A DNA stretch of 38,917 nucleotides, from NCBI GenBank assembly GCA_030841035.1, contig JAVEDI010000024.1, positions 1-38,917 on the forward strand. The letters run 5' to 3'. Below, in pieces: positions 32,934 through 33,091 of the stretch (positions are counted from its first letter, which is position 1; each line of letters starts with the position of its first letter). The notes below the pieces were generated by a model. It did not search any database. It worked only from the letters and a program-made list of their open reading frames with translations, and had not been told where the DNA came from. Both the position numbers and the translations under genes were made by a program. This stretch comes from Actinomycetota bacterium. GTDB taxonomy: Bacteria; Actinomycetota; Actinomycetes; JACCUZ01.

Positions 32934-32939
32934 TAGGGT
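32934..32939 (+). promoter_or_regulatory. -10-like hexamer TAGGGT for leuA leader
   Basis: TAGGGT, 7 nt, ATG 32947. The same hexamer stands 6 nt before the HIT and uppS starts. It supports a transcript starting at or next to the leader peptide ATG. Confidence 0.55.
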
Positions 32940-32946
32940 GGGCCGC

Positions 32947-32994
32947 ATGCGGCGTGACCTCCTTCTTGGCTGCCGCGGCGGGGCCTACTCCTGA
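32947..32994 (+). CDS. leucine-rich leader peptide of leuA
   Basis: Fifteen-codon frame [15 protein letters not shown] followed by TGA. It has three consecutive Leu codons, CTC CTT CTT; CTT is rare in such high-GC DNA, where CTG and CTC dominate. The ATG lies 7 nt after a -10-like TAGGGT hexamer, so the peptide may be translated from a leaderless mRNA. It ends 97 nt before leuA. Classical attenuation with such peptides is established for leuA and ilv genes in actinobacteria. Ribosome stalling at the Leu codons when charged tRNA-Leu is scarce would alter downstream folding and allow leuA transcription. Confidence 0.75.
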
Positions 32995-33065
32995 GGCCGG
33001 TCTCCTCGCCGCGGGAGCTGCGCCTGCGTTCCGGCCGCCTCGAGCCGATGAGCCCACGCTCTCGG
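32974..33065 (+). promoter_or_regulatory. leuA attenuator region with alternative hairpins
   Basis: By eye: stem A pairs CGCGGCGGGG (32974-32983) with CCTCGCCGCG (33004-33013), 10 bp with one G-U. Its 5' arm lies 7-16 nt after the last Leu codon, within reach of a stalled ribosome. A competing small stem is GGCCT (32982-32986) with AGGCC (32994-32998). Another alternative pairs GAGGCCGG (32993-33000) with CCGGCCGCCTC (33031-33041). A downstream hairpin CCGATGAGC/GCTCTCGG (33045-33065, one bulge) may be the terminator, though no U-tract follows. Folding was not computed. Confidence 0.5.
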
Positions 33066-33091
33066 AAGATCCCGGACAAGGTGACCCGCCC

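Follow-up and report, generated by a model that had tools for sequence, protein, structure and literature searches.

Leucine-codon leaders ahead of leuA have been described in several bacteria. In Actinobacteria, a LEU element upstream of leuA was named by Seliverstov, Putzer, Gelfand and Lyubetsky in 2005 (PMC1262725). How it works has so far been unsettled: the effects of Leu-codon mutations in Streptomyces coelicolor (Craster 1999, as cited in PMC1262725) are described there as inconsistent with classical attenuation, and the 2005 authors preferred a binding protein, the orthologue of ML1624. Leader peptides with a Leu run before leuA have also been described as leuL1 of Streptomyces lividans (MRFGLLLLSCRGEGL; PMC8079986), which is leaderless and has no typical terminator, and as leuL of Corynebacterium glutamicum (PMC8709942). 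The published hints diverge as to the output, with leaderless translation and pairing to the Shine-Dalgarno (SD) sequence on one side and short M. tuberculosis leuA leader RNAs of 85, 65 and 45 nt on the other (PMC3526491). Short leader RNAs of C. glutamicum have been read as attenuated transcripts (PMC4046766), and ribosome protection has been reported for the leuA uORF of M. abscessus (PMC4974804).

The locus described here lies in a window of 38,917 nucleotides from an Actinomycetota bacterium. What precedes its leuA is a LEU element as defined in 2005, with which it shares the actinobacterial leuA location, the leader ORF with its Leu run, the two-helix pseudoknot and the lack of a terminator. 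An earlier note on the same DNA had described this locus; the kind is already known, both as the LEU element and as leuL in S. lividans. What is new is that the same scaffold, with changed codons, stands ahead of leuC, second leuA copies, leuB and a LeuA_dimer gene. Elements that share a fold while their codons match different branched-chain genes amount to a natural codon-swap experiment, and make the mechanism directly testable.

The leader peptide and its codons

As the earlier note had described, a 15-codon frame with three consecutive Leu codons stands between the hexamer TAGGGT and leuA; its coordinates are given with those of the other features in Table 1. The leader ORF ends 97 nt before the leuA start. 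LeuA, the first enzyme of leucine synthesis, carries the HMGL-like, IPMS_D2 and LeuA_dimer domains in the window; the nearest named relatives are Nocardioides and other Actinomycetes.

Table 1. Positions of the leader, the pseudoknot arms and leuA in the window
Feature	Position	Strand	Remarks
-10-like hexamer TAGGGT	32934..32939	+	7 nt ahead of leader start codon; predicted leaderless start
Leader peptide ORF (leuL), 15 codons	32947..32994	+	start ATG at 32947; LLL-x-[CRG]-R leader in 85/88 leuA upstream regions
Regulatory Leu codons CTC CTT CTT	32959..32967	+	rare CTT at last position in 78/85
Stem 1, 5' arm (CCGCGGCGGGG)	32973..32983	+	starts 5 nt after last Leu codon; 99.2% of cells paired
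Pseudoknot stem 2, 5' arm GGCCGG	32995..33000	+	in stem 1 loop, directly after leader stop; 88% of cells paired
Stem 1, 3' arm (CCTCGCCGCGG)	33004..33014	+	native partners pair better than swapped ones, z = -8.7, 0 of 20000
Pseudoknot stem 2, 3' arm CCGGCC	33031..33036	+	stem 2 z = -7.2, 0 of 20000
leuA Shine-Dalgarno region AAGGTGA	33078..33084	+	about 4 bp at most with Leu run (CCTT:AAGG or ACCT:AGGT)
leuA, 2-isopropylmalate synthase, 576 aa	33092..34822	+	PF00682, PF22615, PF08502

LeuA homologues were collected from 80 named genomes and from the window's genus and family. The set of regions upstream of leuA came to 88, made up of the window, seven from its family and 80 others. A leader of the form LLL-x-[C/R/G]-R was found at a fixed place in 85 of these regions, the window included, using an anchor pattern that demanded a 5-nt spacer from the last Leu codon to stem 1. 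The conservation of the Leu run in relatives that the earlier note had proposed to look for is therefore present. Among the three exceptions, an insertion splits the Leu run in L005 (MTRSLVLLSPVEGLLRCRSEA) and leaves the rest of the element intact, while no leader was found upstream of leuA in L064 and L074. A covariance model (R1) built from 83 of the leader sequences matches 383 of the 394 class genomes searched (97% of those sampled); its matches outside the class fall mainly within f17 and f32, two of the phylum's families. The class genomes in which the search found no LEU element are G309, G324 and G335, all from one genus of family f74, and eight others. In the window's own genome, the leuA copy is the sole element found with the model; eight other matches there, at 17-22 bits and with no leader of LEU type, were set aside as chance. 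These comparisons support the view that the leader and the RNA structure downstream of it have been conserved together across the class. A scan of the whole window against Rfam 15 at the gathering score, which covered riboswitches, T-box and leader families, gave no match.

A single minor tRNA normally decodes both CTC and CTT. CTT proved to be as rare as had been claimed: in the window's LeuA it accounts for 1 of 43 Leu codons, and in LeuA of the same loci for 3.5% of them, compared with 42% of the codons in the Leu runs. CTT fills the last Leu position in 78 of 85 leaders, and CTC does so in the remainder. With the rare CTT, the three Leu codons look as if they had been chosen for slowness.

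A TAnnnT motif ends 6-8 nt ahead of the leader start codon in 65 of 85 sequences, as against 2-10 of 85 at shifted control positions, and the 7-nt spacing in the window falls within this range for actinobacterial leaderless leader peptides. Leaderless initiation of the leader, which the earlier note had suggested, is thereby well supported as a probable feature of these elements, and is predicted for this organism. The spacing agrees with the leaderless leuL reported for S. lividans (PMC8079986). A sigma-70 scan of the window found nothing.

The pseudoknot and its distance from the Leu codons

On comparative evidence, the conserved structure is an H-type pseudoknot in which both helices covary. 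Over both helices, 95.4% of the cells in 83 aligned sequences are paired, compared with 41-53% when the partner is slid. Four of the 11 pairs in stem 1 and two pairs in stem 2 have changed on both sides, so that the compensatory changes for which the earlier note had advised looking are seen in both helices. In a second test, partners were swapped between species, and none of 20000 permutations was as good as the native pairing for either stem, although slid- and swapped-partner controls remove relatedness only in part. The window sequence allows all 17 pseudoknot pairs, including a single G-U pair. The folding energy of the single sequence does not exceed that of shuffled ones (z = -0.21), and minimum-energy folding of the window alone is uninformative at its GC content; the evidence for the structure is comparative. 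Stable hairpins are present, as the earlier proposal of mutually exclusive hairpins would have it, but the conserved fold is a pseudoknot rather than a terminator/antiterminator pair.

In 83 of 85 sequences the leader stop codon falls within the loop of stem 1; in the other two (L041 and L044), the leader ORF continues through the 3' arm of stem 1 and stops beyond it. When the last Leu codon occupies the A site, the leading edge of the ribosome would fall approximately at the first base of stem 1. With this footprint, the 5-nt spacer sets the stem about +12 from the P site, at the edge of the ribosome. Given this short gap, a ribosome halted at the Leu run would abut stem 1 and not mask it, which is the reverse of the earlier idea that the stalled ribosome covers the 5' arm of the largest stem. 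Stem 1 would then stay folded, and only ribosomes reading past the Leu codons would open it. A ribosomal frameshift at a knot placed 5 nt after a pyrimidine-rich codon run was considered as one reading of this arrangement.

Elements ahead of other leucine-pathway genes

In many genomes of the class, the element occurs in two or more strong copies. Downstream of the further copies lies a second leuA, leuC, leuB or a small gene whose product matches only PF08502, the LeuA allosteric domain. We counted the last three regulatory codons of each element. Leu occupies 107 of 111 codons in the leuA copies of this second set and 20 of 21 in the leuC elements, while the 63 codons of the leuB elements include 22 for Leu, 17 for Val, 15 for Ile and 4 for Phe, and the elements of LeuA_dimer genes read Leu-Val-Val. 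Codon identity is associated with the downstream gene at a Fisher p of about 1e-20, for counts that are not phylogenetically independent. In the leuB-element runs, Val is GTA in 14 of 17 cases and Ile is ATT in 9 of 15, codons that stand at about 2% each in LeuB coding regions. The pseudoknot of the leuB set also covaries (native -18.8 vs -14.4 kcal/mol, 0 of 5000). The Val and Ile codons found in relatives within the same fold suggest that translation of the peptide is how the cell reads its supply of amino acids.

The leuB elements of the window's own family (L189, L190 and L191) have mixed Val/Ile/Leu codons in the order Ile-Phe-Val-Leu, and more leuB elements with mixed Val/Ile/Leu codons instead of the Leu run occur at L134, L143, L205, L208, L213, L214, L217, L223, L226, L227, L230, L231, L233, L234, L236, L237 and L240. 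Those of leuC with Leu codons (L136, L138, L142, L209, L229, L243 and L245) all come from one family (f9). Leu-Val-Val elements precede stand-alone genes for the LeuA allosteric domain at L132 (1984-2421, minus strand) and L140 (310-705, plus strand), in both of which a Pfam check found PF08502 without the synthase, and a third such gene with its element is found at L232. Between the element and leuB there is a conserved small ORF of about 20-50 aa with an end like (VQES)MDRRDNGG at L189, L190, L191, L134, L143, L205, L214, L217, L223, L235 and L237; for six of these ORFs, Pfam and NCBIfam yielded nothing above the cut-off. The leuB locus of the window's genome (L248, G000:C19) has no leuB element, and a TAGGCT lies 8 nt ahead of the leuB ATG, which suggests that this leuB is leaderless without an element. 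In the freely available literature searched, no description of the leuB or leuC versions was found.

Competing readings and comparison with known systems

The earlier reading of the locus as a leucine attenuator stands in so far as conservation of leader and structure speaks for a leucine-rich, probably leaderless leader regulating leuA; its classical switch is not supported. Such a switch, in which the stalling of a ribosome decides whether an antiterminator or an intrinsic terminator forms upstream of leuA, would suit the Leu-run leader and the stable stems, as well as the short leader RNAs of C. glutamicum (PMC4046766) and M. tuberculosis (PMC3526491) that have been read as attenuated transcripts. 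A terminator scan of the window, however, found no intrinsic terminator, and only 4 of 85 sequences have a U-tract (at least 5 T in 9 nt) behind stem 1, with 1 of 65 having one behind stem 2. The S. lividans leuL is likewise without a typical terminator (PMC8079986), the published S. coelicolor mutations, as summarized in PMC1262725, are also inconsistent with this scheme, the conserved fold is a pseudoknot, and the 5' arm of stem 1 would be left uncovered by a ribosome halted at the Leu run. Classical transcription attenuation is accordingly improbable. Rho-dependent or pseudoknot-associated premature termination, where completion of the leader leaves the RNA unprotected and a ribosome stalled on the Leu codons prevents termination, is compatible with the lack of an intrinsic terminator, with the weak SD occlusion in the window and the leuB elements, and with the short RNAs from the M. 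tuberculosis leuA leader (PMC3526491), but these RNAs could be processing products, and pairing between the Leu run and the SD sequence covaries across leuA elements. We regard it as a tentative alternative, on the doubtful side.

Complementarity between the Leu codons and the leuA SD exists in many species and in some cases reaches 7-11 bp (the Amycolatopsis locus L062 has a long helix of this kind), and the two sides shift register together: CTCCTGC faces GCAGGAG, GCTCCTTCG faces CGAAGGAGC and TCCTTCGTC faces GACGAAGGA. Native pairs beat swapped ones across species (z = -3.9), with an advantage that peaks at the Leu run relative to distant segments. SD occlusion by the Leu run was nevertheless rejected as a universal rule. 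It cannot be the whole story because the helix in the window is limited to about 4 bp and is outdone by 94% of swapped SDs, and because the Val/Ile codons of the leuB elements are poor anti-SD partners (native -9.0 kcal/mol). Other SD partners in the window's family (loop GGTCAC and leader CACTCTC) vary between species.

The binding-protein model of 2005, in which a regulatory protein such as the ML1624 orthologue would sit on the pseudoknot and the leader ORF would be incidental, is in keeping with a conserved, compact RNA and, again as cited in PMC1262725, with mutations inconsistent with classical attenuation. We find it very improbable, since a pure protein site would need neither codon swaps nor rare codons nor a start codon that keeps the leaderless -10 spacing; reading of the codons is favoured because they follow the downstream gene while the fold stays. 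That the frame is a functionless chance ORF in a GC-rich spacer would accord with the ordinary folding energy of the single sequence, but is refuted by the leader, codons, spacing and covarying pseudoknot kept in nearly all class genomes, and we give it practically no credence.

The element is most likely a ribosome-mediated attenuator. We consider it likely that leaderless leuL, fused to the H-type pseudoknot, adjusts leuA to the available charged leucyl-tRNA by stalling of the leader ribosome. The native pairing of Leu run and SD across species is in line with this, as are the short M. tuberculosis leader RNAs (PMC3526491), the ribosome protection in M. abscessus (PMC4974804) and the leaderless leuL of S. 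lividans (PMC8079986). The explanation builds on observed features, namely the leader and its position, its codon choice, the leaderless geometry, both helices, the fixed spacing and the change of codons with the gene, the last of which is the strongest point for codon reading. From them we infer the stalling, the direction of control and the output. A ribosome would begin at the 5' end of the mRNA and read the three apparently slow Leu codons. When leucine is plentiful, it would pass through the Cys-Arg-Gly-Gly codons, open stem 1 and end at the stop codon inside the pseudoknot loop; after its release, the RNA would refold and leuA would be repressed. When leucine is scarce, it would stall at the Leu codons, immediately upstream of stem 1, and keep hold of the Leu run; since many species use this run as the anti-SD strand for leuA, leuA would be expressed. 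The output would be SD occlusion or premature termination. Counting against this explanation are the S. coelicolor Leu-codon mutations (as reported in PMC1262725), the short helix in the window and the poor anti-SD pairing of leuB elements. In general terms, we are inclined to see the LEU-type elements as a class-wide family of interchangeable amino-acid sensors, each with a leaderless leader whose slot for 3-4 slow codons lies some 5 nt upstream of a covarying pseudoknot, where the codons in the slot set the amino acid sensed while the pseudoknot stays, and whose mechanism would be neither a terminator switch nor a protein-bound RNA. If this is true, one RNA scaffold, found in nearly all sampled genomes of the class and unmatched by Rfam in this window, sets the expression of the actinobacterial leucine pathway.

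Among known systems, the attenuator of the enterobacterial leu operon also places a Leu-rich leader peptide ahead of leuA; unlike it, the window has no intrinsic terminator/antiterminator pair and no Rfam match, and has a pseudoknot and a leaderless start. In the ermC and ermB translational attenuators, stalling of the leader ribosome is thought to free the sequestered SD of the next gene, as is proposed here, but their signal is an antibiotic, whereas the element in the window would respond to charged-tRNA supply, is leaderless and has a pseudoknot, and SD sequestration is partly supported. We know of no covarying pseudoknot in the mycobacterial poly-Cys leaderless attenuators. These attenuators (Canestrari 2020, named in PMC13236596) resemble the window in having a leaderless short ORF rich in the pathway amino acid and no obvious terminator, and differ in the amino acid and the genes. 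With leuL1 and leuL, the window peptide has the pattern MR..LLL.CRG in common; it differs from them outside LLL-x-CRG and has three Leu codons rather than four. The LEU element of 2005, finally, has a Leu run that can pair with the leuA SD, a stem that is short in the window, and was reported for leuA and one transposase gene, whereas related elements, with changed codons, are found here ahead of leuC, leuB, second leuA copies and LeuA_dimer genes as well.
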